This document shows, piece by piece, positions 1-37,070 of a stretch of DNA of 37,070 nucleotides. The stretch is taken from positions 1 through 37,070 of IMG/VR virus record IMGVR_UViG_3300046328_001234; one strand, 5' to 3'. A model generated the notes under the pieces. That model was not told the DNA's origin and did not search any database. It saw only the letters and a list, made by a program, of their open reading frames with translations. The position numbers were made by a program, and so were the translations under genes. Numbering within the stretch: the stretch's first letter is position 1; every line of letters begins with the position of its first letter. This stretch comes from a virus.

Positions 1-584
1 GAAATCTGCCTCTGCTCCGAGTCTTTATTACCCGTAAGGGTGTTAAGAGAAAAGGGGTGCTCTAATATTTCTCTCTGTTGATCACTCTGTTGATCAATAT
101 GATGATCACTCTGACAGAGTGGATCAAAATGATCCGATGCTAGTTCATTTTGATCCGATGCTAGTTCATTTTGATCCGATGCTAGTTCATTTTGATCCGA
201 TGCTAGTTCATTTTGATCCGATGCACCAACAGCCTCAGTCAAGGCGAGTAGTTTCTCGTAGTCGATTCGATACCACTTCGTTCGATTGCCTCGATTCTTG
301 TTAAAATCATCTGAGATAAGTAGTCCGTCTTTCTCAAGGGCTAATATCTGCCGCTTCATGGTTGGAAGAGGAATAAAATCTAGGTCTTTATGCCATTTTG
401 CGTAACTGTTAAAAACCCAGTAAAAACCCTTGAAGAAGTGGGTCTTATCTGACTTTCTTGAGTAGATCTTTATCCAGAAATGGATTTGCTGCATAATCAC
501 AGCTTTCGAGATGCTCCCTAGAGCTTTGGCTAGGGTTGGAGAGAAGCTTTTTGGCTCCTCATCAAAAAGATACTTGTTATTCAT
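1..584 (-). CDS. Replication initiator-like protein, N-terminal part (continues across the circular junction)
   Basis: Translated from ATG at 584 the frame is open to position 1, about 194 codons with no stop. The start MNNKYLFDEE, followed by SPTLAKALGS and VIMQQIHFWI, resembles the winged-helix N-terminus of phage and plasmid replication initiators (replisome organisers). Residues 1-115 look like a DNA-binding domain. Residues about 122-150 are a tandem heptapeptide (SDQNELA, four copies plus part), followed by a Gln/Asp/His-rich linker. The ATG overlaps the stop of the upstream RHH gene as ATGA, which implies translational coupling. At position 1 the leftover bases TC join the reverse complement of position 37070 in phase with the frame at 36557-37070, giving 366 codons in all. 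dnaB follows directly. The initiator role is inferred from fold-like N-terminus, repeats and neighbours; no catalytic motif is visible. Confidence 0.8.
   Translation of the reverse strand, partial: MNNKYLFDEEPKSFSPTLAKALGSISKAVIMQQIHFWIKIYSRKSDKTHFFKGFYWVFNSYAKWHKDLDFIPLPTMKRQILALEKDGLLISDDFNKNRGNRTKWYRIDYEKLLALTEAVGASDQNELASDQNELASDQNELASDQNELASDHFDPLCQSDHHIDQQSDQQREILEHPFSLNTLTGNKDSEQRQI
79..114. repeat. Three 12-bp repeats with TGATCA cores (possible origin element)
   Basis: TGATCA palindromes start at 79, 91 and 103, exactly 12 bp apart; units one and three are TGATCACTCTG followed by T or A. They lie inside the initiator gene, next to the 21-bp array. Regular helical spacing of palindromic boxes beside iterons is typical of replication origins or partition sites. 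They encode part of the protein linker on the minus strand. Confidence 0.6.
131..224. repeat. Iteron-like array: 21-bp direct repeat, 4.5 copies, inside the initiator gene
   Basis: Four identical 21-bp units start at 131, 152, 173 and 194, with a 10-bp partial unit at 215-224. Each begins GATCCGATGCTAGTTC and ends in a T-run. 21 bp is two helical turns, and each unit encodes one SDQNELA heptapeptide on the minus strand. Iterons inside the initiator gene that also encode an interdomain linker are the known arrangement of the lambda O gene. The perfect nucleotide identity, including third codon positions, argues for selection or recent expansion at DNA level. Likely the binding site of the encoded initiator (inference). 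Confidence 0.75.
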
Positions 585-14459: not shown

Positions 14460-14647
14460 ATTAATAAATAAGCCTTTCTTTGGCAAAGGCAATCTTCTGG
14501 TTGCTCACAATGGTCGTAATCATCTGAAGTAGAGAGTATACATACGCCTACTCCATTTCGGCATAGGTTGTCATGCCTATGCCTGCGCCTCCATCGACGC
14601 GATCGCGCTTTCTTTCTGAGCAACGGTGCATACATTGAATGTTTCAT
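14456..14647 (-). CDS. Possible small cysteine-rich protein
   Basis: 63 residues, very basic at the N-terminus (LLRKKARSRRWRRRHRH) with five cysteines later (CRNGVGVC, CEQPEDCLC). ATG 14647 lies 6 nt after the stop of the upstream gene, with AGGCGA as a possible ribosome site. It ends on the CTAG shared with terL. The Cys pattern could bind metal; composition is unusual, so this may be spurious. Confidence 0.45.
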   Translation of the reverse strand: MKHSMYAPLLRKKARSRRWRRRHRHDNLCRNGVGVCILSTSDDYDHCEQPEDCLCQRKAYLLI

Positions 14648-18632: not shown

Positions 18633-18903
18633 CGGTCGCACCGTGAATGGCTTCAGCCTTTGGTTTGCGACCCCGCTTTGCAGGGGGCTCAAGTACTGCT
18701 GGTTCGGGGCGATCGCGTAAACCATCCTTACCTCGACCGATATTGATAGCTCTTTCGGCGATCGTTAGGCAGAAATCCGAGGGCGAATCTTTGAGCATCT
18801 CCTCAATAAGCATAGAGTAGGGGGTGGTACTCCCAAAACCACCTTGCTCGTTTTGGGCGATTTGCACCTCTTCAAAAAGCTTCTGTAGTCTAGCTAGCTT
18901 CAT
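18625..18903 (-). CDS. Small protein, paralogue of the adjacent downstream gene (copy 1)
   Basis: 92 residues; ATG 18903 overlaps the NrdJ stop (ATGA) with GGAGG just upstream. Shares the TTPYS and DFCL motifs with the next gene, then has a basic AT-hook-like tail (AKRGRKPKAE). The tail suggests DNA binding. Tandem duplication with divergence of the C-termini. Confidence 0.7.
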   Translation of the reverse strand: MKLARLQKLFEEVQIAQNEQGGFGSTTPYSMLIEEMLKDSPSDFCLTIAERAINIGRGKDGLRDRPEPAVLEPPAKRGRKPKAEAIHGATDG

Positions 18904-21900
18904 AAAACCTCCGCATTGAATGAATCGGATTTAATTTGTTCCAAAGTTTCTTTTAGTTCGCACAACCCTGTATCACAGGCAGCAGTCTCAGGGGAGAGTG
19001 CGTCGCCTTGATCGTAGAACTTATAGAGATTATCGAAGTCGTAGGTTTCGATACCTGCTTGCTTTAATCTGAACGCGAGAGCAACTTCTTTTTGCGCTTT
19101 ACGTTCCGCGATCGCCTGCTCAAGCTCGTGATACTTTGCACGATCAATCGGCTCGAAAGGCATACGAGGATAGGTTTGCATATCGTCAAAGCGAGCAAGA
19201 ATGGCTGAGCTTATGTAGCCTTCGTCATTCTGGATCGCATCATAGATGCACTTAGCCAAAGCCTCTACTTCATTCTCACGCAATTCCAAGGTGCTACTGG
19301 TGTTCATAACCAGAATATTGTCGGTAAGCGTAAAGTGATTTGTTTGAGGTTCCATAACGCACCAGCCATACCTCTTCCCTTCAAGCCTATTAATCTCTGA
19401 GACTTTCCACTGACAGGGCTGCGATTCGGAGTTGTTAAAGTGGTCGAGGTGGTGAGGACGAAGAATAAGCTCCTCAGAGATAGTCCCCTTGCTAAAGACA
19501 AGAATGAAGGCTCCTCCGTCTTTTTTGTAGGAGTCGGAACCGAACCACTTGTAACTACAAAGTTTCACCCCAATTCGGGGGAGTTGCTCAGAAAGAAAGT
19601 TAATAAGTTCTTGACTGATCGTAGAGAGGGAAATTACTGACTGATACACACTTCCGTCAGTTGCCAATAATCCTGCAAAGAATCCTGCTAGATAGCTTTG
19701 GCTGCAATCTCTTTTTGGGAGGTACTTCCACTCTGTCGGCAACCCATAGATGCGAGTTTGGTCTATGTCATCTCGCTCACGAGCATTGCTAAACCCATCA
19801 AAGTACGAGACAAGATGCCTTTTGCCTCCGCAGAGATACAGTTGACAGCCAATTTCTCTGCTAGTACCACTTCTATATATAGAACCGTCTCCATAAACAA
19901 GACCGTGCCTAATACCATCTAAATCCAAAGTTAGAACCTCAAAATCCGTACTATTCAGAACAAATCGATGCCCAGTCTTCAGCTCAGCCGCAGTAACTAT
20001 TTTGGTCACACAGCTACCCCCCGAAATTCTTTTTACTGGGAATCGATGACATAGAGTTGAGATAATCCGTTTTTCCTTGCCAGTTTTACCTTCGCGGAGA
20101 ATAATCTCAACCATCTCCCTTTCGTCTTCCGTTTTTACGACTTTCGCTTCTACCCAATTACCATCTTTGTTTAAGACGGTAGTGATATCGCCAGCCTCAA
20201 AGTCCTGAAAACTCTTAATCCCTTGGGCTGTCAAGAAAGTAGTGTCTCTATCAAAACAATTGTGCTTTGTGTAATGCTTCTGAACCTGCATCATGAAGTC
20301 GAACTGGGCTACGGCGCTGAACTTTGAAATATCAATCGCGTCTGCCCCGTCCAAATCTGCCCAAACCGTCTTCATGGGGATTTCGATAAGCCATTCAGTG
20401 CAGCGATAATCGAACGGGTCATCAAGTAAGACCCCATTCTCGTCCTTGTCTGACTGACTTGGCAGTACCGAGTGTCCCAACGCGATCGCGGCAAAGGCGA
20501 CAGGGTGATTCTTCCGCACAGTGATACGGCGAATCATATAAGCTGCCTTGGGTGGGTGATAGCCAGGCGAAGCTCCTGTGAGTAGAGATTTTGTTCCACT
20601 GGGTTGTACTGCGGTAGATCTGTTTGGCACTTTCAGTCCATGGCGATCGCAATACTCTTGTACGGTGTCTTCAACAATTTGCCTCCAGTCAGACAAATAG
20701 TTTTGCTCGGCTTCCTTGAAGTATTCGGATAAGTAGGTGTAGTCAGCCTCCAAGAGTGTAAACAAGTCTGTGGCTTCAGGGCTAAAAGCTTTGATCTTTG
20801 AGTCGTTGAGCAAGTCAAGAATACGACCCCATTCAGCAGGGCGACCAGCTTCCCACCACTTCAGCCAATCCACACCAAAAGCTTTTACGAAGAAATCGAA
20901 AATTCCCGTTGGGCAGACCGCCACAATTGGATCGAGTTCGCGGGACTTTTGGTAGCGATCGCCTAAAGCGGATAGATCGTGATTCAGTAAAGCGACCACG
21001 GACAATGCGCCAGCTCTAAACGCTTCTTTCTGTTCGCCAAAATTATTGGGGTCAAGTTGGTTAGCGTGAACCTCTGCCAAATTGCAGTTTTTCGTCAGGG
21101 TGTTACCGAAAACACCTTGATTAAATTCTGGTTCGGTGAAACAAAATGAATCCCGCGCTTCTGGCAGCTCCTCTACGGACGTGATCACTTGGTACTTACC
21201 CCTACATTTTGGCTTGTGAGATCTACTTACATCTAGTCGGTGGCAGGGGATGGAACCACACTCGGTAATTTGGATGCCATAGAGATCGTGCTTCCTTTTC
21301 CCGTAGTTAGTGATTTCACCCGCTTTGTATATCTCACAAATCGAAGAACGAACTCCACACTTTGCCAGTAGGAGCTGCAACCTTCTAGCCCTCCCATACT
21401 GAGAGATGTATATACGAATATCACCCGAATTAGTGTTGCTTCCATCGGTATCAGCCAATCCCGCGATAAAATTCAAGATCGCTTCCTTATTCCAAGACGC
21501 AATAGCATCGAGTCCGTCTAGACTGTTTTTTAGCGACAAAATCATCATGTGGTCTAATACGTGGTTTAGACCCTTGACCTCAACACAGGTGTTTTTATAC
21601 CCCTCGTACTGCTTTGGCTCACTCTTGTTCCCGACGACAGGAAGATGCTGTTTTTCTCCGTGTAATACGAGTTGATTTCTAAGAAAAGAACCGTCCTTGT
21701 TTCTGGCTACAGTGCCATCACCAACCATTACCCCAAGCGTATAAGCCTTTTGCGGATCTACGAAAGCTCCATCTTTGTACTCAATACTGAACGGCTTAGT
21801 CTGCAACTGGTACTTCGATTGGCTGGAGAGATTCTTGGCTTGAACAACAGAGTAGTCAAGCTGGAACCTATTCTTCACAAGAAATCGATGGTATTCCGTT

Positions 21901-23384
21901 GTGTCCAAATAAGATCCATCTCCAAAGCGAACTCGGAGCATCCTTTGATCTTCGCCCGTCTTAAAAGGAGTAACCCTACTCCACCTTTCGCCATTCCAGA
22001 TCTCTACCTCCCTACCAACAAGGGACTCGATAGTAGCCATCCCTTCCCTTGTAATAAGTAGGGTATCGCCAGCAACGCAGAAATTGTCTTTCAGTAAAAT
22101 TTCACCACAGGGGTTCAAACCCAGTCTGAGTAAGCGATCGAGCAATTCCTCTTTACCCTTATCACTTTCCCAGAAGCTCCAGCCATATTTCTCTTGGTTG
22201 AGTTTGTCAAGATAAAGTCCCGCAAAAGTAGCACCTTCCTTAGTCTCGTCAACCTCGGCTTCGTAGAGACGAATAAATTCTATGCGTTTAGCATCGGTGT
22301 CTAACAGGTCGGCATTCGCTCTAGCGATCGCCTCTGGTGCATATTGAATAGCACCTTCGCCAGACTGGTATTGCTTGGTTACAGATGCAAGGGTGTCTGC
22401 CCATGACGGCTTGCGATGAAATACTCGCGTGTGGTTTGCCATTCTCAAAGCATCACGTTCAGGATCGATACTCCATTTACCGTCAGGGAGCTGAATCCAA
22501 AGGTTATCCTTGGCAACTTCCCCCAATTCATCGTCCGAAGAAAATTGGCGCATTCCAGCACTGCGACGGATCGACCCTGCCACGATCGCTACCGCAGCCT
22601 CGTCAATCAACAGGCAGCATTCAGCAGAAGTCAAATTTCGTCCAATCGCCCCATTCAGAATCTTGGCGACACGAGGGAATACATCGGGCAACTTCACGGG
22701 ATTCGCTGTACCGCCAAAGCTTTGTAGCAGCTCTCCAGAAGGTCGGATATTAGACATATCGACATCAACCACAAAAAGTGCTGGCGCAGGTAATGATGTC
22801 GGTCTTGAGCTGAGTGCCAGCAGGTAGTGGTAAGCATCGACCCAACCCTGCCTAGAATCGCCCACAGTAATTGTGCAGCGAATTTTGTCGCGATTACCAT
22901 CATCGGGATGCAGTAAAGTAGTTGTCCTTTCTTGGCGATCGCCCTTAGCGATCGCACCGATTTCTCCAACAACTGTTACTTCCAATCGATTACGAATGGC
23001 AGGTAGTCGCGAGATGCATCTGCCTTCCAATACAGCGCCAGTGCCACAACCTTGCATCGCCAAATTCATTACGCTAGCAAAAGATTGCCAGTCCACAATG
23101 TCGGTCGATGAGCAGTTATATGCACCAGCAAAATTCTCAGGTCTGAGTGACCACTCAGTACCGCCCACCCACAACCAACGACCACTGGTGAGGGTTTTTA
23201 GTTGAGATTGCATTCTATAAACAAGGTCTCTTTCTTCATCGGTGAACTTACCAAGAACAGCGATCGCGGGGATAGTGCGATCGCATACATTCTTCCAGTT
23301 CTCAAGCAATCCTGATACTAAGCGGCGGAAATATGTACGCGCAGCTACGACACTGCCGAGAGTGCCAGAGGGGAATTGGGACAT
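18900..23384 (-). CDS. nrdJ: Class II (adenosylcobalamin-dependent) ribonucleotide reductase with two inteins
   Basis: 1494-residue precursor; about 844 after removal of two inteins, close to single-chain ribonucleoside-triphosphate reductases (Lactobacillus leichmannii type). It reduces ribonucleotides to deoxyribonucleotides using B12. Visible residues: C91 in YNCSS; radical-type C426 in NPCGE; the rejoined CNLAEV after intein 1 (C767); the QPSGTKSLL loop near 927-935; and the C-terminal dithiol C1470/C1475 (CDTGLC) that re-reduces the active site. Intein 1 spans C436-N766 and intein 2 C1043-N1361. The start overlaps the upstream gene by 40 bp. With dcd and thyX it supplies dNTPs in the same transcription direction. 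Confidence 0.96.
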   Translation of the reverse strand: MSQFPSGTLGSVVAARTYFRRLVSGLLENWKNVCDRTIPAIAVLGKFTDEERDLVYRMQSQLKTLTSGRWLWVGGTEWSLRPENFAGAYNCSSTDIVDWQSFASVMNLAMQGCGTGAVLEGRCISRLPAIRNRLEVTVVGEIGAIAKGDRQERTTTLLHPDDGNRDKIRCTITVGDSRQGWVDAYHYLLALSSRPTSLPAPALFVVDVDMSNIRPSGELLQSFGGTANPVKLPDVFPRVAKILNGAIGRNLTSAECCLLIDEAAVAIVAGSIRRSAGMRQFSSDDELGEVAKDNLWIQLPDGKWSIDPERDALRMANHTRVFHRKPSWADTLASVTKQYQSGEGAIQYAPEAIARANADLLDTDAKRIEFIRLYEAEVDETKEGATFAGLYLDKLNQEKYGWSFWESDKGKEELLDRLLRLGLNPCGEILLKDNFCVAGDTLLITREGMATIESLVGREVEIWNGERWSRVTPFKTGEDQRMLRVRFGDGSYLDTTEYHRFLVKNRFQLDYSVVQAKNLSSQSKYQLQTKPFSIEYKDGAFVDPQKAYTLGVMVGDGTVARNKDGSFLRNQLVLHGEKQHLPVVGNKSEPKQYEGYKNTCVEVKGLNHVLDHMMILSLKNSLDGLDAIASWNKEAILNFIAGLADTDGSNTNSGDIRIYISQYGRARRLQLLLAKCGVRSSICEIYKAGEITNYGKRKHDLYGIQITECGSIPCHRLDVSRSHKPKCRGKYQVITSVEELPEARDSFCFTEPEFNQGVFGNTLTKNCNLAEVHANQLDPNNFGEQKEAFRAGALSVVALLNHDLSALGDRYQKSRELDPIVAVCPTGIFDFFVKAFGVDWLKWWEAGRPAEWGRILDLLNDSKIKAFSPEATDLFTLLEADYTYLSEYFKEAEQNYLSDWRQIVEDTVQEYCDRHGLKVPNRSTAVQPSGTKSLLTGASPGYHPPKAAYMIRRITVRKNHPVAFAAIALGHSVLPSQSDKDENGVLLDDPFDYRCTEWLIEIPMKTVWADLDGADAIDISKFSAVAQFDFMMQVQKHYTKHNCFDRDTTFLTAQGIKSFQDFEAGDITTVLNKDGNWVEAKVVKTEDEREMVEIILREGKTGKEKRIISTLCHRFPVKRISGGSCVTKIVTAAELKTGHRFVLNSTDFEVLTLDLDGIRHGLVYGDGSIYRSGTSREIGCQLYLCGGKRHLVSYFDGFSNARERDDIDQTRIYGLPTEWKYLPKRDCSQSYLAGFFAGLLATDGSVYQSVISLSTISQELINFLSEQLPRIGVKLCSYKWFGSDSYKKDGGAFILVFSKGTISEELILRPHHLDHFNNSESQPCQWKVSEINRLEGKRYGWCVMEPQTNHFTLTDNILVMNTSSTLELRENEVEALAKCIYDAIQNDEGYISSAILARFDDMQTYPRMPFEPIDRAKYHELEQAIAERKAQKEVALAFRLKQAGIETYDFDNLYKFYDQGDALSPETAACDTGLCELKETLEQIKSDSFNAEVL
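19302..20258 (-). mobile_element. Intein 2 of NrdJ (LAGLIDADG type)
   Basis: 319 residues, C1043-N1361, inserted at KHN/TSSTLEL; the following residue is Thr. Splicing block A begins CFDRDTTFLT, and the C-terminal block is YGWCVMEPQTNHF ending NILVMN. Two LAGLIDADG-like helices (RHGLVYGDGSIY and AGFFAGLLATDGSVY) mark a homing endonuclease. The residue before the terminal Asn is Met instead of the common His, as in a minority of inteins. Confidence 0.9.
21087..22079 (-). mobile_element. Intein 1 of NrdJ (LAGLIDADG type)
   Basis: 331 residues, C436-N766, inserted at KDNF/CNLAEV within the reductase active-site region; next residue Cys. Block A is CVAGDTLLITREG, block B TTEYHRFLVKN-like, and block F SFCFTEPEFNQGVFGN ending TLTKN. 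LAGLIDADG motifs are YTLGVMVGDGTV and FIAGLADTDGSN, so the homing endonuclease appears intact. The penultimate residue is Lys, not His. Confidence 0.9.
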
Positions 23385-24035: not shown

Positions 24036-24276
24036 TGCTCACCTCTTTGAGGGGGAGTTCCAACCCTTCAAGGCGGTAATTGAAGCCCTCCAAGAAGATG
24101 CTGTCGTTGGAGATACCCCTTTCAAAAAAGTTCACCACAGAAACGGTGCTGTCGGGGCGGCGGATAAAAATTTGAGCTGGTATAAAAGCCTCTAGATTAA
24201 CGATTACGTTGAAGTTCACATCGTAAGGAGCCAAAAGCTTTGTCGCGATCGCTTCAATCTGCTCTTTGTTTAACAT
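24025..24276 (-). CDS. Hypothetical protein, 83 aa
   Basis: Starts MLNKEQIEAIATKLLAPY, like its downstream neighbour. A beta-rich middle (FNVIVNLEAFIPAQIFIRRP) follows. No recognised family. Its start overlaps the thyX stop by 7 bp and its stop overlaps the next gene by 11 bp. Confidence 0.65.
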   Translation of the reverse strand: MLNKEQIEAIATKLLAPYDVNFNVIVNLEAFIPAQIFIRRPDSTVSVVNFFERGISNDSIFLEGFNYRLEGLELPLKEVSNAN

Positions 24277-26090
24277 CCTCTACCCTCCACAAGTTTTCCA
24301 TCTCGATATATCAAAGCCCCAGTCCTCATTTCGTGGCGGACGCTAGCCCACTCATAAAAATTGTCGTTCTTGGTTCTCCAAGGGGCAACTCTCGCAAAGT
24401 GCTCAAGCGGTGTTAAGTGTTTTGGCTTGCTACACCAAAGCTTTTGGAACAATTCGACATCTTTTTTGGGATCTCTGATACCTTCGTGAGTCAGGTAACT
24501 AACTCTGGCACATCGACCGATCCCTACCTGAAGAACGGTTTCAGGGTCGAGATCCGAGTCTTGCTCTGAGTCGATAAAAGGCATGTGCCATTCGTCGATT
24601 CCCCGCTCTTTTGGCTTGCTAGCTGTGTAAGCAAGCTTCATCCTGTTGGCTAGCGCTTGCATCTCAGGCTGGGAATCTGGGTGACACCTCTGCTCAAAGA
24701 AATTCTCATAGTCTGTCCCTGAACAAATAACCGTGATGGAGGAAAATGGCTCAAGCAGTCGATTTGGGATCTGCTTGTGAAGGTTTAGCGCTATAAACCT
24801 TTTTACATGCTTGGTAGCGTCCCTTCGAGCGTCTGCCCAGATCTCTCTGGCTAAATCGATATCATCAATCTCCTTTGCCGCTGACATGCCTGTTTGATTT
24901 TCGCCCCAATACAGTGGGTATACCTCTTGACTTTCGACAAGTTTAATCATTTTCTCAATAGGAATTGCTCTGCTACTGCTGCTGTTCTTGCTATTGTGAA
25001 CGACAACTCCATTGGCAAAGAAATTTGGGAAGTCCCCAGCAATCTCTAAGTCAAATGTTTCCTCAAAGCCGCAAGACCTGATAATTTCAACCTGCTCAAA
25101 TCCAGTCATAAGTGGACATCCTGTTTGCCAGCCTTGAATTTTATGTATTTCTTTGTGCGCCTCTGGGGTAACAGCGATTACATTGTCAATATCGAAGGCG
25201 AGATCGGGTCGCTGGTGTCGGGGAATAACATGATGTATATCAAACGTACTAGATAGATCTTCGCCAGTGATTGCACACTTGCCATTTTGCCTATTACGCA
25301 CAAACTCCTTGTTATTTCTAACCCATTGACAAACCCATTTCCCATCTATTTTGTTAAACGCGCTAGATTCGATCCCAGTACCATACCTGTAGGTCATAAC
25401 CGAGTCAGTCTCAGGCTGTAGTTCTTCCAGCCTGAGCCATCCGCGCCGTGACAAGATCAAATGGTCTTTGCTTGCTTTAACCTCATAGTTTCTGGTTTTG
25501 AGTAAGAAAACTTCTTTTTTCCCAGATCGAAAAACGTTAGAGACGCTAGATAACTGCACCTCATTTGTCACCTCGTTGACCTGCCTGATCGACATCTCCT
25601 TGAGGCGATCGCGGATAGCAAACCTTCTTTTTCCAGTACTACTGTTTCTCCAATTAGTCCATGAATTTGCGTGGGCAAAACACTCTCTACCAACCTTGTA
25701 AGCGCCCTCAATTAGTTTGTCTCGACAAGCTAGATTTAGGTTCAAAGCCTTTGCAAAACCTAGTAAACCAGCAATCTCTTTTGACGAATAATCCCTGTCT
25801 TCTAGATTGGACAAATAAATCCCGTTATGTCTAGAGGTCTCGTGGGGGGTGGAACCGTTTTCCCACTTCTCAGCAAGCTCGGCGATTGTCATTGAGTGGA
25901 CACGTCTTAAACCTTTGGATGTTTTTGCAGGCAGCTCAAAGTCGATACGACTATCTCCAGACAAGCACAACATTCGATGGGTCATGAATTCCGAGTGAAT
26001 CATTCGATGATATGTCAGCACAAAAGTTGTGAGTCGAGTGCCCCAAGGATTGATACTATCGGCGATGATTTCTGCTTTAGGTTGGAACAT
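24270..26090 (-). CDS. thyX: Flavin-dependent thymidylate synthase ThyX with an HNH intein
   Basis: 606-residue precursor, about 281 after splicing. ThyX makes dTMP from dUMP using FAD/NADPH and methylenetetrahydrofolate. The signature is split by the intein: ..EFMTHRML / SKNSSSSRAIP (S367 onward), matching the phage-type form of the R-H-R-x7-S flavin and substrate motif. Downstream features are LNLHKQIPNRLLEPF and SVRHEMRTGAL. The N-terminus (FQPKAEIIADSINPWGTRLT) also fits. It overlaps the broken small gene upstream and a small gene downstream. Together with dcd and nrdJ it makes the element self-sufficient in dTTP supply. Confidence 0.95.
   Translation of the reverse strand: MFQPKAEIIADSINPWGTRLTTFVLTYHRMIHSEFMTHRMLCLSGDSRIDFELPAKTSKGLRRVHSMTIAELAEKWENGSTPHETSRHNGIYLSNLEDRDYSSKEIAGLLGFAKALNLNLACRDKLIEGAYKVGRECFAHANSWTNWRNSSTGKRRFAIRDRLKEMSIRQVNEVTNEVQLSSVSNVFRSGKKEVFLLKTRNYEVKASKDHLILSRRGWLRLEELQPETDSVMTYRYGTGIESSAFNKIDGKWVCQWVRNNKEFVRNRQNGKCAITGEDLSSTFDIHHVIPRHQRPDLAFDIDNVIAVTPEAHKEIHKIQGWQTGCPLMTGFEQVEIIRSCGFEETFDLEIAGDFPNFFANGVVVHNSKNSSSSRAIPIEKMIKLVESQEVYPLYWGENQTGMSAAKEIDDIDLAREIWADARRDATKHVKRFIALNLHKQIPNRLLEPFSSITVICSGTDYENFFEQRCHPDSQPEMQALANRMKLAYTASKPKERGIDEWHMPFIDSEQDSDLDPETVLQVGIGRCARVSYLTHEGIRDPKKDVELFQKLWCSKPKHLTPLEHFARVAPWRTKNDNFYEWASVRHEMRTGALIYRDGKLVEGRGC
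24993..25967 (-). mobile_element. Intein of ThyX with HNH homing endonuclease domain
   Basis: 325 residues, C42-N366; next residue Ser. Block A is CLSGDSRIDFELP, block B VKASKDHLILSRRGW, and block G ends FFANGVVVHN with the canonical His-Asn. The internal nuclease is HNH type: CAITGEDLS, then DIHHVIPRHQRPDLAFDIDN and VTPEAHKEIH. A helical segment (YSSKEIAGLLGFAKALNLN) may add DNA binding. Inserted directly in the ThyX active-site motif. Confidence 0.92.
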
Positions 26091-34835: not shown

Positions 34836-36560
34836 CTAAACTCGACGCAGTTCATCTACCGCGACCCTCATTTCGGAGTTGTCGGGCAGTATGAGGTGGG
34901 CAACTCCAAGCTTACCTACTTCGGGGATGTCGTGAACGCTCAAGCGGGTCACTCCACACACCTCATTCGGTTTTGGTATCTGCTTCGCCTTGATACGGGT
35001 GTTCATTTCCTGTTTTTCTTCTGGTGTTGAGTAGGAAACATTGAGTACAACTTGGCATCCAACTTCCAAGTCTCCAAAGTAATTCTGCTTGTTGGCAGAT
35101 GGAGTTGCGATCGCCTGCTCTGGCTCAGAATTTACGAGCTTTGGTGCTCCAAGATCGTAAAAAGTGGCAAGAGAGCCGTTATATCCGAGCAAAATCTTCT
35201 TACTTTTCCCAGAACTATTGGCGTTACGGCGCTTTAGCGAGATTATTTCAGCTCGATCCGAAGGAATTTCAAAATCGTCGTATTTCTCTCCTCGATACAA
35301 GCCAAATACGTCATCGGCATTCTCTTCGATCGCCTTTCCACCATAAAGCCCGTCAATAGTTGGGCGTTTATCTGTCCCCTTCAAGGACTCCTTGGTCAGT
35401 TGAGACAAAGACAGTACAGCGATATTGTAATCCTTGGCAATCCCTTTCATTTCCTTGACATAGCGGTTAATGAGGCTGAAATCGTCACCGCCTTTCTCGG
35501 CGATTTTGATGTTGTCTATGACAATAAAGCCTAACTCGCCAGTACCACCATGCTTTCTCGCGTGTTTGCGAGCGAATTCCTTTGCTCGATTGAGTATTTG
35601 AGGAATGGTAGCCTTATTGTCCTCGTCGATCGCCAAGTTGTTGAGCAAATCCCCGACGGCGGACGCTTTGGCAATCCGCTCAAGGTCTTCGTCCCGAAAA
35701 TCTCTGCGACGCATACGCGATAAGGCGACTTTTGCTTCGGAAGCAATCCATCGATCAACAACGTTTCGGGTGGACATCTCCATCGAACCTATGTAGCCCA
35801 CCTTACCTTGGGCTGACAGGTGCTTAGCCATATTCCACGCCGCCCCAAACAGGAGCATGGACTTGCCAATCCCAGAGTCCCCACCAATTACGGTAAATTC
35901 GCCACCTCTAAAGCCCCCTTCGAGCATTTGGTCCCAAGCTGCATAGCCACTAGGAATGATCGGGCTAGAATCCTCGGCTTCTGGGTCAAGAAACTCGGTA
36001 ATGCGATCGCTATAAGCAATTCCAACCTCAAAAACCGTACTGCGAGGCTGAGACGCGGACATCGTCTCGCCAATCAAGTCTTGAGCTTTTGTGCAGGCAT
36101 CGAGGATAGGTGTCTCAAGGTTTTGAGCTGCGGCGATCGCTGCCCTACCCGCCTTGATAAGCCCACGGCGAATATATGCTTGCCGAATCAAATCGGCGGC
36201 GGACTCGTAATGTGCTGGGCTTTGAATGTATGTGCTGCCCATGATATCGGCATAGGTGTTGCTCACCAGATCCGAGATGCTCTCATGCCCGTAAGTGTCT
36301 CTAAATCCAGATTCTTGAAGCGCAGAAGCTATCGTCAACGGGTTGATATCGCGATCGCTTTGCCTTAAAAACATTGCTGCCCTGTAAAACACCCCTAGAA
36401 GGCTCGAAAAGAACATCTCAGGTGTGATTGCATCCACAACCAACCCAAGATAGCTCCCACCCTCAAAAACTCCAGCGATAATAACTTGTTCGGCTTCGAC
36501 GTTGTTCGGCTCAACCAATGAGTTGAGGTTTTGGATTTTTGTAGTTTCTTGCATGATCAT
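34836..36560 (-). CDS. dnaB: Replicative DNA helicase DnaB
   Basis: 574 residues; ATG 36560 overlaps the initiator stop (ATGA). The N-terminal DnaB domain (NNVEAEQVIIAGVFEGGSYL) is followed by a linker and the RecA-like ATPase: GGFRGGEFTVIGGDSGIGKS with Walker A at 226-234, Walker B FIVIDN (D349), the sensor-type LSLSQLTKE near 389-397, and EENADDVFGLYR with an ISLKRRNANSSG arginine-finger region. It has a C-terminal extension of about 100 residues that is not typical of DnaB (VVLNVSYSTPEEKQEMNTRI, then GVTRLSVHDIPEVG). It unwinds the fork as a hexamer, loaded by the initiator at the iterons. Confidence 0.95.
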   Translation of the reverse strand: MIMQETTKIQNLNSLVEPNNVEAEQVIIAGVFEGGSYLGLVVDAITPEMFFSSLLGVFYRAAMFLRQSDRDINPLTIASALQESGFRDTYGHESISDLVSNTYADIMGSTYIQSPAHYESAADLIRQAYIRRGLIKAGRAAIAAAQNLETPILDACTKAQDLIGETMSASQPRSTVFEVGIAYSDRITEFLDPEAEDSSPIIPSGYAAWDQMLEGGFRGGEFTVIGGDSGIGKSMLLFGAAWNMAKHLSAQGKVGYIGSMEMSTRNVVDRWIASEAKVALSRMRRRDFRDEDLERIAKASAVGDLLNNLAIDEDNKATIPQILNRAKEFARKHARKHGGTGELGFIVIDNIKIAEKGGDDFSLINRYVKEMKGIAKDYNIAVLSLSQLTKESLKGTDKRPTIDGLYGGKAIEENADDVFGLYRGEKYDDFEIPSDRAEIISLKRRNANSSGKSKKILLGYNGSLATFYDLGAPKLVNSEPEQAIATPSANKQNYFGDLEVGCQVVLNVSYSTPEEKQEMNTRIKAKQIPKPNEVCGVTRLSVHDIPEVGKLGVAHLILPDNSEMRVAVDELRRV

Positions 36561-37070
36561 GCCGCCTGCGAATTTCTAAGTAGTTTTTTACGCTTGAGAT
36601 TAGCGAGGACTTCACCGACATCCACTCGCTCGGATTCACCCCCAACGGGTTGTTCAAATAGTTGCTCGACTTGGCGCTGTTTAGTTGCGATCGCTTCAGC
36701 GGACTCAAGGGCGATCGCCTGATCGACCAGCTCCTGAAACTTACCCCAAAAGCCGAGGTTCACACAGTCCTTGATGGTATTGAAAATAAAATCTGTTGCC
36801 GCGCCCACGGTGGCTGCGTCACCACGCCTCTTCTTGCGCTGGATACAGACATCGATCAACGACTTGCGCCAGTCGTTTGGGTGTTTGCCATTATGCCACT
36901 CCGCGTAACCAGCATCGACAACGGATTGAGGAATATGGCGATTTTGCGGCTTGGGCTGACTAAACCGCTTTTCAAACTGCATATATTTTTCTGCTTGTTT
37001 TGAAACAGCGACTGAAGGTGTGATCGCCTTGCTGAGATTTTCGAGCGGTAAAGGGGAAGCGGGGGTAGGG
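36557..37070 (-). CDS. Replication initiator-like protein, C-terminal part (joins position 1)
   Basis: The frame from the window's right edge to TGA 36559-36557 is open for 171 codons and lacks a start at its 5' end; the ATG at 36982 is internal. It begins P-T-P-A-S-P-L-P-L-E-N-L, then basic and helical segments (WRKSLIDVCIQRKKRRGDAA, FIFNTIKDCVNLGFWGKFQE). Taken in phase with the frame leaving position 1, it completes a 365-residue protein. The C-terminal domain probably contacts DnaB, whose gene overlaps the stop. The clean phase and lack of stops support circularity. Confidence 0.8.
   Translation of the reverse strand, partial: PTPASPLPLENLSKAITPSVAVSKQAEKYMQFEKRFSQPKPQNRHIPQSVVDAGYAEWHNGKHPNDWRKSLIDVCIQRKKRRGDAATVGAATDFIFNTIKDCVNLGFWGKFQELVDQAIALESAEAIATKQRQVEQLFEQPVGGESERVDVGEVLANLKRKKLLRNSQAA

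Follow-up and report, generated by a model that had tools for sequence, protein, structure and literature searches.

A probable replication origin written through the initiator gene linker of a virus

In a 37,070-bp viral record, analysed here over its full length (the window), the linker-coding part of the initiator gene very probably serves as the origin of replication and thus lies within protein-coding sequence, with dyad sites that would be recognized by the N-terminal domain of the encoded protein and adjoining 12-bp repeats at which the DNA would be opened.

The initiator gene and its iteron array

The window is the whole viral record, and PHROG profiles matched a terminase, a ribonucleotide reductase, a thymidylate synthase and a polymerase processivity factor within it. 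The initiator ORF runs on the minus strand from 584 to 1 and then in frame across the record ends to 36557, giving a joined frame of 365 aa without a stop. Because the frame continues over both ends, we take the record to be a circle cut within the initiator gene; a search of the record for a terminal repeat found none. The 5′ part of the gene (P0001; 1–584, minus strand) encodes an N-terminal winged-helix domain and the linker, and matched two PHROG profiles, phrog_6493 (DnaD-like helicase loader, 3.6e-31, residues 2–150) and phrog_678 (O-like proteins of other phages, 8.5e-8). The 3′ part (36557–37070, minus strand), assigned from the frame across the record ends, clusters with the C-terminal parts of two relatives, L003 and L120, and gave no DnaD match in Pfam and PHROG profile searches. 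The next gene downstream (34836–36560, minus strand) encodes a DnaB-like replicative helicase (PF03796, 1e-36; phrog_19, 2.1e-67).

An AlphaFold model of the N-domain (residues 1–115, built with 64 sequences; pLDDT 90.1, pTM 0.79) is a winged helix in which the helix at residues 73–85 occupies the recognition position. The DNA-binding domain (residues 1–111) maps to 252–584, and the predicted recognition helix, which the covariation and tree co-changes described below also indicate, maps to 330–368, with the putative specificity residues P74 and K77 at 363–365 and 354–356, all on the minus strand. A sequence search of the PDB with the domain profile gave PadR-type regulators at a best E of 0.038, an NCBIfam search gave no meaningful match, and a promoter scan of 1–1200 found two promoter-like sites versus 2.4 expected and no terminator. 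The host may be inferred to be a cyanobacterium, because the nearest cellular relative, L120, lies in a Pseudanabaena genome and because GCGATCGC-type sites, which we take to be typical of cyanobacteria, are frequent. Elsewhere in the window, the 1494-aa ribonucleotide reductase ORF (18900–23384) has its PHROG match split in three stretches and may carry an insertion such as an intein, and the thymidylate synthase ORF (24270–26090) has an internal HNH endonuclease match.

The first-pass annotation had described four and a half perfect 21-bp repeats and three TGATCA boxes at 12-bp spacing in the linker-coding part of the gene, and this description held throughout: Tandem Repeats Finder reported 4.5 copies of period 21 at 130–224 with a 100% match, the boxes stand at 79–84, 91–96 and 103–108, and the whole array lies with the boxes inside the linker. 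The program also reported 3.4 copies of period 12 at 73–113 (82%, minus strand), the proposed counterpart of a CAGAG-ATTACTA element in relatives. A pattern scan of the record resolved the iterons as five 15-bp quasi-palindromes of the form arm-AAA/TTT-arm, spaced by a 21-bp step over 121–219 on the minus strand. Iterons 1 to 4 (205–219, 184–198, 163–177 and 142–156) read GGATCA-AAA-TGAACT, and iteron 5 (121–135) is the perfect dyad GGATCA-TTT-TGATCC. When all 37,070 bp were scanned for GGWTCAWWWTGAWCY with at most one mismatch, the 10 strand matches fell at five places, all of them iterons, whereas shuffled sequence gave a mean of 0.31 and at most 3. Another perfect dyad, CACTCTGACAGAGTG, lies at 107–121, between the iterons and the TGATCA boxes.

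In 5000 within-gene synonymous shuffles, five copies of TCA(AAA/TTT)TGA had a P of 0.0008 in the window gene and three TGATCA boxes a P of 0.0026 in the window region. The window alone nevertheless holds few independent sites, because four of its five iterons are identical tandem copies. A DNA-level role had originally been argued from perfect conservation at synonymous positions; that argument is weak on its own, because a recent tandem duplication would also yield perfect copies, and the real test therefore comes from relatives, which together with the synonymous shuffles bear the role out.

Linker arrays are constrained as DNA and covary with the recognition helix

The closest relative, the viral contig L003 (64% identity to P0001), carries one AGTTCA-AAA-TGAACC, four GGATCA-TTT-TGAACC and one GGATCA-TTT-TGATCC, all 21 bp apart, together with three TGATCA boxes, and its last iteron is identical to that of the window. 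Between the two, the dyad centre changed from AAA to TTT with the dyad unchanged, and for this reason the peptide differs, SDQNELA in the window having become SDHFEPP (QN to HF). A comparison of related elements had been proposed as a check on the origin, with a kept peptide and a lost DNA repeat as the outcome that would speak against it; L003 gave the opposite, since it keeps the 21-bp DNA dyads and alters the peptide. In L003, synonymous shuffles gave P = 0.0020 for the core of the sites and P = 0.049 for its TGATCA boxes.

In both sequences the 21-bp period makes each repeat encode the same heptapeptide, as it would if the repeat were selected as peptide, either for a flexible repetitive linker or for a protein-binding motif. 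We consider such selection highly improbable and rejected it, because the two closest relatives share the DNA and differ in the peptide, because the arrays of the wider family mix reading frames (see below), and because the signal is removed by synonymous shuffles. The window heptapeptide is thus a special case that arises because a period of 21 is a multiple of three. In addition, the linker that the pSK41 origin encodes can be deleted from Rep and is dispensable as protein (PMC5703833). A heptapeptide repeat also occurs in a distant initiator, that of a B. subtilis plasmid (L382, ∼1330–1500), where in-frame SKLQNEV repeats that parallel those of the window stand directly before the 12-bp element described below.

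For a family-wide survey, loci from viral contigs and genomes (L003–L199 and L209–L367) were collected in five scans, one with the window protein as its starting point and the other four with alignments. A profile search found the initiator gene in 358 of 366 sequences, and a redundancy cut at 80% identity left 117 genes. This search replaced an earlier motif-based ORF set (genes in 136 of 201 sequences, three left out), on which a first test had found linker dyads in 25 of 57 genes versus 7.8. We scored perfect dyads with 6-bp arms and a 3-bp spacer in a 100-codon linker against 300 within-gene synonymous shuffles. Such dyads were present in the linkers of 52 of the 117 genes (86 sites), a number that none of the 300 shuffles reached (mean 14.8, sd 3.4, maximum 24). 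In the 100 codons upstream and downstream of the linker, the corresponding numbers were 9 (null 7.9) and 8 (null 5.9) of 117 genes. An array caller that requires at least two like sites was run with 20 shuffles on 116 genes, after removal of one (L132) in which a run of N was miscalled as sites; it found arrays in 71 linkers (shuffles: mean 9.2, maximum 15) and in only one upstream segment.

Sixty-eight of the 71 array genes, with half-sites required to begin with TG, CG, TT or AG, were used for covariation. Their sites are mostly spaced by 22 bp (58), 23 bp (48) or 21 bp (11), and 61 of the 68 arrays span more than one reading frame (two frames in 37, three in 24, one in 7); for example, agtgcaAAAtgcact-type sites occur in all three frames in L036, and tgatcgAATcgatca sites in two frames in L120. 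The same arrangement of dyads, built from other half-sites, is seen in lineages of different phyla. This comparison of genes shows the linker sites to be constrained as DNA, independently of reading frame and with dyad symmetry. The four identical copies in the window could, as products of slippage, represent a neutral and functionless recent tandem duplication, but the relatives make this very hard to sustain, since the dyad layout is found across phyla with varied half-sites and is absent from the flanks, and since the half-sites covary with the recognition helix, and we rejected it. In two relatives (L054, and L154 from Geobacillus thermodenitrificans), the linkers are very long and contain many VQDG/VQGG-type repeats, which the dyad caller does not resolve.

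For the 68 genes, we tested half-site bases for covariation against all variable columns in an alignment of the N-domain, whose coding sequence lies upstream of the linker. All six top-scoring base-residue pairs involve the positions of window P74 and K77: residue 74 with base 4 (z = 18.1), base 3 (z = 12.6) and base 5 (z = 10.4), and residue 77 with base 6 (z = 11.3), base 5 (z = 9.1) and base 3 (z = 7.7). With N at residue 74, bases 3–5 are GGT in 6 of 6 genes; D goes with CAC (4 of 4), P with ATC (4 of 5), S with AAC (8 of 13), K with ACC (10 of 19) or TCC (9 of 19), and R with TCA, GCA or TCG (4, 2 and 1 of 7), while A is mixed. At residue 77, K goes with C (23 of 28) or T (5 of 28) at base 6 and R with A (20 of 25), and Q is mixed. 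The same top pairs were recovered among the 43 genes with <70% identity outside the helix, and 0 of 300 permutations reached them. Among 21 genes with <60% identity, base 4 with residue 74 (0 of 300) and base 6 with residue 77 (1 of 300) were kept; among 13 with <55% identity only base 6 with residue 77 remained, and at the strictest cut (8 genes, <50% identity) the signal was gone.

On a tree built without the recognition helix, co-changes of bases 3–5 with residue 74 (p = 1.4e-5) and of base 6 with residue 77 (p = 3.2e-6) each ranked first of 87 columns, and base 4 alone with residue 74 (p = 0.012) ranked third, not first. When predictions were trained only on genes <50% identical, residue 74 predicted bases 3–5 in 27 of 55 genes (majority guess, 6) and residue 77 predicted base 6 in 43 of 60 (majority guess, 22). 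The comparison thus shows that the bases of the half-sites and two residues of the predicted recognition helix, 74 and 77, vary together.

At 14 distant loci the agreement was uneven, and in eight of these the dyad caller gave nothing clear. PEp14 (D74, K77) has five agggcaATTtgccct-type sites that match the code at bases 3, 5 and 6 and have C, not A, at base 4; phage AF (D74, K77) has agggcaATTtgcact, which is weak. NIIg9.7 (R74, K77) has gtgccaAGTtggcac, as the code predicts, in a gene close to the training genes, and a Nostoc plasmid (R74, Q77) has atggcaTAGtgccaa twice, with a base 3 unlike that of the training genes. Clear dyads were not called in L368, L369, L371, L374, L375, L377 or L378, although a TCAAAATG series was seen by eye in HannyBb (L375); L379 has a weak TGCATT pair, and in lambda the caller gave two sites of TGAGGG type. 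The skin phage 2F_1 (S74, K77; predicted TGAACC) was missed by the caller. Its intergenic sites, GGTTCA-TCT-TGATCC and AGTTCA-TCT-TGATCC, have left arms that equal or nearly equal the prediction and right arms that differ from it. An 83% match had suggested horizontal transfer of the window iterons to 2F_1, which we rejected: an IMG/VR scan for GTTCAWNTTGATCCGATG returned eight stretches, only one with two copies (L207, taken as 2F_1 itself), and it is simpler to suppose that similar recognition helices go with the same site.

A 12-bp element after the array

We counted the commonest 8-mers over the 110 bp that follow the last site and compared them with synonymous shuffles. ACCAGAGA was present there in 47 of 68 genes (shuffles 3.7, maximum 9) and CTACAGAG in 29 of 68 (shuffles 1.6); the consensus, ACCAATACCAGAGATTACTACAGAGATTACTACAGAGA, is a 12-bp repeat with the unit CAGAGATTACTA. 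At least two copies of CAGAGA within 80 bp were found in 48 of 68 genes, mostly 12 or 11 bp apart. The offset of ACCAGAGA from the last site was 7, 8 or 18 bp in 42 of the 45 genes having one within 60 bp, and its reading frame was 2 (32 genes), 0 (12) or 1 (1). Overall, 76 of 117 linkers contain ACCAGAGA. A tie to one type of C-terminal domain was rejected, as ACCAGAGA occurs in seven clusters of at least two genes and in six single types.

A 38-nt element query matched 97 phage records (Acinetobacter 33, Staphylococcus 18, Klebsiella 15, Pseudomonas 6, and others) and 57 plasmid records, including Bacillus, Arsenophonus, Escherichia and Nostoc. Among the 60 phage matches listed of the 97, which we grouped by our own reading of feature names, 27 fall within genes called initiator, O, DnaD, replication or primosomal protein and 16 within ORFs that are hypothetical or merely numbered; a further 11 are in records without annotation, and 6 coincide with another feature or with none. 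In Nostoc HK-01 the element is inside an unnamed gene with dnaB as the next gene, which is the gene order of the window; in the Bacillus plasmid pBSG3 (L380, 804–839) it stands outside annotated genes, ∼550 bp before a rep gene and after repeats of CCTACAGGGAAA. A 30-nt form matched 2356 of 5426 complete E. coli genomes, nearly always in the chromosome, and these matches point to likely origins in prophages; in those listed, the overlapping gene is annotated as a hypothetical protein, 'phage replication protein O', RepO or the like. In Acinetobacter, element-bearing genes in two phage matches and one plasmid match are annotated 'GntR family transcriptional regulator' and are probably misnamed initiators. 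The spread of the 12-mer over phyla argues against a reader factor from one host group.

ACCAGAGA is absent from the window, L003 and L120 (0 of 3), which share one C-terminal cluster. Shortly after the last site, the window reads, in steps of 12, CAGAG-TGATCAT, CATAT-TGATCAA, CAGAG-TGATCAA and CAGAG-AGAAAT. Because the TGATCA boxes have the same place and period as the element, with CAGAG in three of four steps, we suggest with moderate confidence that they are its cyanobacterial variant.

Origin reading and relation to known systems

From these sequence comparisons we infer physical binding of the array by the initiator, origin activity, opening at the 12-mers and helicase loading. The winged-helix N-domain would occupy the five 15-bp dyads, probably in the form of dimers or tetramers arrayed at intervals of about two helical turns, and residues 74 and 77 of its recognition helix would read the outer half-site bases. 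Opening or helicase loading would take place at the 12-bp repeats next to the array, where the C-terminal part of the initiator and the neighbouring DnaB would act. The heptapeptide would be a by-product of a linker protein that merely tolerates the DNA. The spacing of the dyads at about two turns, the set distance from them to short direct repeats and the adjacent helicase gene are together consistent with a lambda- or RepA-type origin. The detrended GC skew on the circle, which had been put forward as a check, reaches its minimum at 1117, a distance of ∼0.9 kb from the array, and its maximum at 14540; the minimum agrees with a nearby origin and coincides equally with a switch in gene strand.

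Alternatively, the sites could bind the initiator for autoregulation or copy control (handcuffing), with the origin proper elsewhere. Sequence alone cannot separate regulatory from initiation binding, and in a skin phage (L002, MF417929.1, 2970–3090) window-type sites with a period of 22–23 stand between genes, ∼750 bp before an O-like gene, so that an array need not be in-gene. We regard this alternative as unlikely, because the same gene segment acts as the origin in pSK41 and pPR9 (PMC5703833), and because the offset of the 12-bp element is fixed at 7, 8 or 18 bp in 42 of 45 genes, which fits an origin better than an operator.

A replication origin within the linker would have precedents, as in-gene origins are already known in lambda, pSK41 and P1 oriL; others are Tuc2009 rep2009, Listeria A118 gp49 and pLS32 repN. 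The first-pass comparison with lambda O stood for layout and failed for descent. Like oriλ, the window has iterons in the initiator gene between the N- and C-terminal parts, and the lambda sites (ccctcAAAAcgaggg) are dyads around an A-tract, as the window iterons are built around AAA or TTT. However, the half-sites differ, and lambda has P where the window has the DnaB-like helicase gene. The 68-gene N-domain profile did not find lambda O (E 1.3), and neither the window protein nor the 64 members matched any Pfam phage-O family; descent from lambda O is therefore not supported. Lambda iterons are followed by an AT-rich stretch (PMC7466680), and P1 oriL, whose origin function inside repL was demonstrated by synonymous substitutions (PMC9948254), differs from the window in having an AT-rich region. 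The window shows no obvious unwinding stretch of the classic AT-rich kind, because A+T reaches only about 0.62–0.65 at 61–180 (0.42–0.67 around it).

In fold, the predicted N-domain appears most like the N-terminal domain of plasmid RepA. Structure comparison gave as its best matches the RepA/initiator entries 4pql (Z 10.2, rmsd 4.9, 106 aligned), 4pt7 (Z 10.0) and 5kbj (Z 9.4), which we take to be of the pSK41 type, in a range of scores that overlaps with unrelated entries (up to 9.5), and Foldseek gave 4pql at E 0.018 and nothing at E≤0.001. Likenesses to RepA_N plasmids such as pSK41 and pPR9 include the predicted winged-helix N-domain, a central position of the binding sites within the initiator gene and DnaD-like relatives; the window differs in being a viral genome and in lacking a RepA_N match (PF06970; window protein at E≤1, 64 members at E≤0.01). 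In RepA_N plasmids, Rep boxes lie within rep and are bound by the N-domain, four of them centrally in pSK41 rep (PMC5703833), and the linker arrays of the window and its relatives show the same in-gene placement. The same paper reports that in pPR9 a phage-like N-domain and origin replace those of pSK41 as a ∼500 bp block that replicates as a mini-replicon, and that this N-domain is pfam13730 (HTH_36) (PMC5703833), a family that 7 of our 64 members match weakly.

The DnaD-like phage initiators of phrog_6493, whose N-domain profile matches at 3.6e-31, include relatives with the same linker arrays and suggest helicase loading by name only; the window differs in its C-terminal part, which has no DnaD match, and in the TGATCA form of its 12-bp element. 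The unwinding region of B. subtilis oriC, with its DnaA-trios and DnaD recognition element, likewise has a box array followed by short repeats, and its strand CTACTATTACTTCTACTA shares TnnT and TTA/CTA steps with the phage 12-mer ATTACTACAGAG, which contains TACT. This is a resemblance only. DnaD binds TnnT pairs in single-stranded oriC (PMC10201434); the period is 3 in oriC versus 12 in the phage element, and the latter occurs in hosts of several phyla. A literature search that covered few subscription journals did not find a frame-free array as a family rule, a two-residue code or the shared 12-bp element.

More broadly, these loci may constitute a portable two-part origin cassette that is carried across phyla by phages and plasmids and combines a self-addressed array with a near-universal (CAGAGATTACTA)n element, a generalization to which we give roughly even odds. 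In such a cassette the half-sites would follow the two-residue code and the 12-mer would be read by a factor common to unrelated hosts or by the initiator. Hidden inside coding sequence and free to move between frames, the cassette would have escaped annotation as anything but protein. The recognition code could be tested by two-residue swaps, and the second element would offer a handle on origin opening and helicase loading. Since each such gene encodes a protein and holds its target no more than a few hundred bases away, natural protein-DNA pairs would be readable from sequence in very large numbers.
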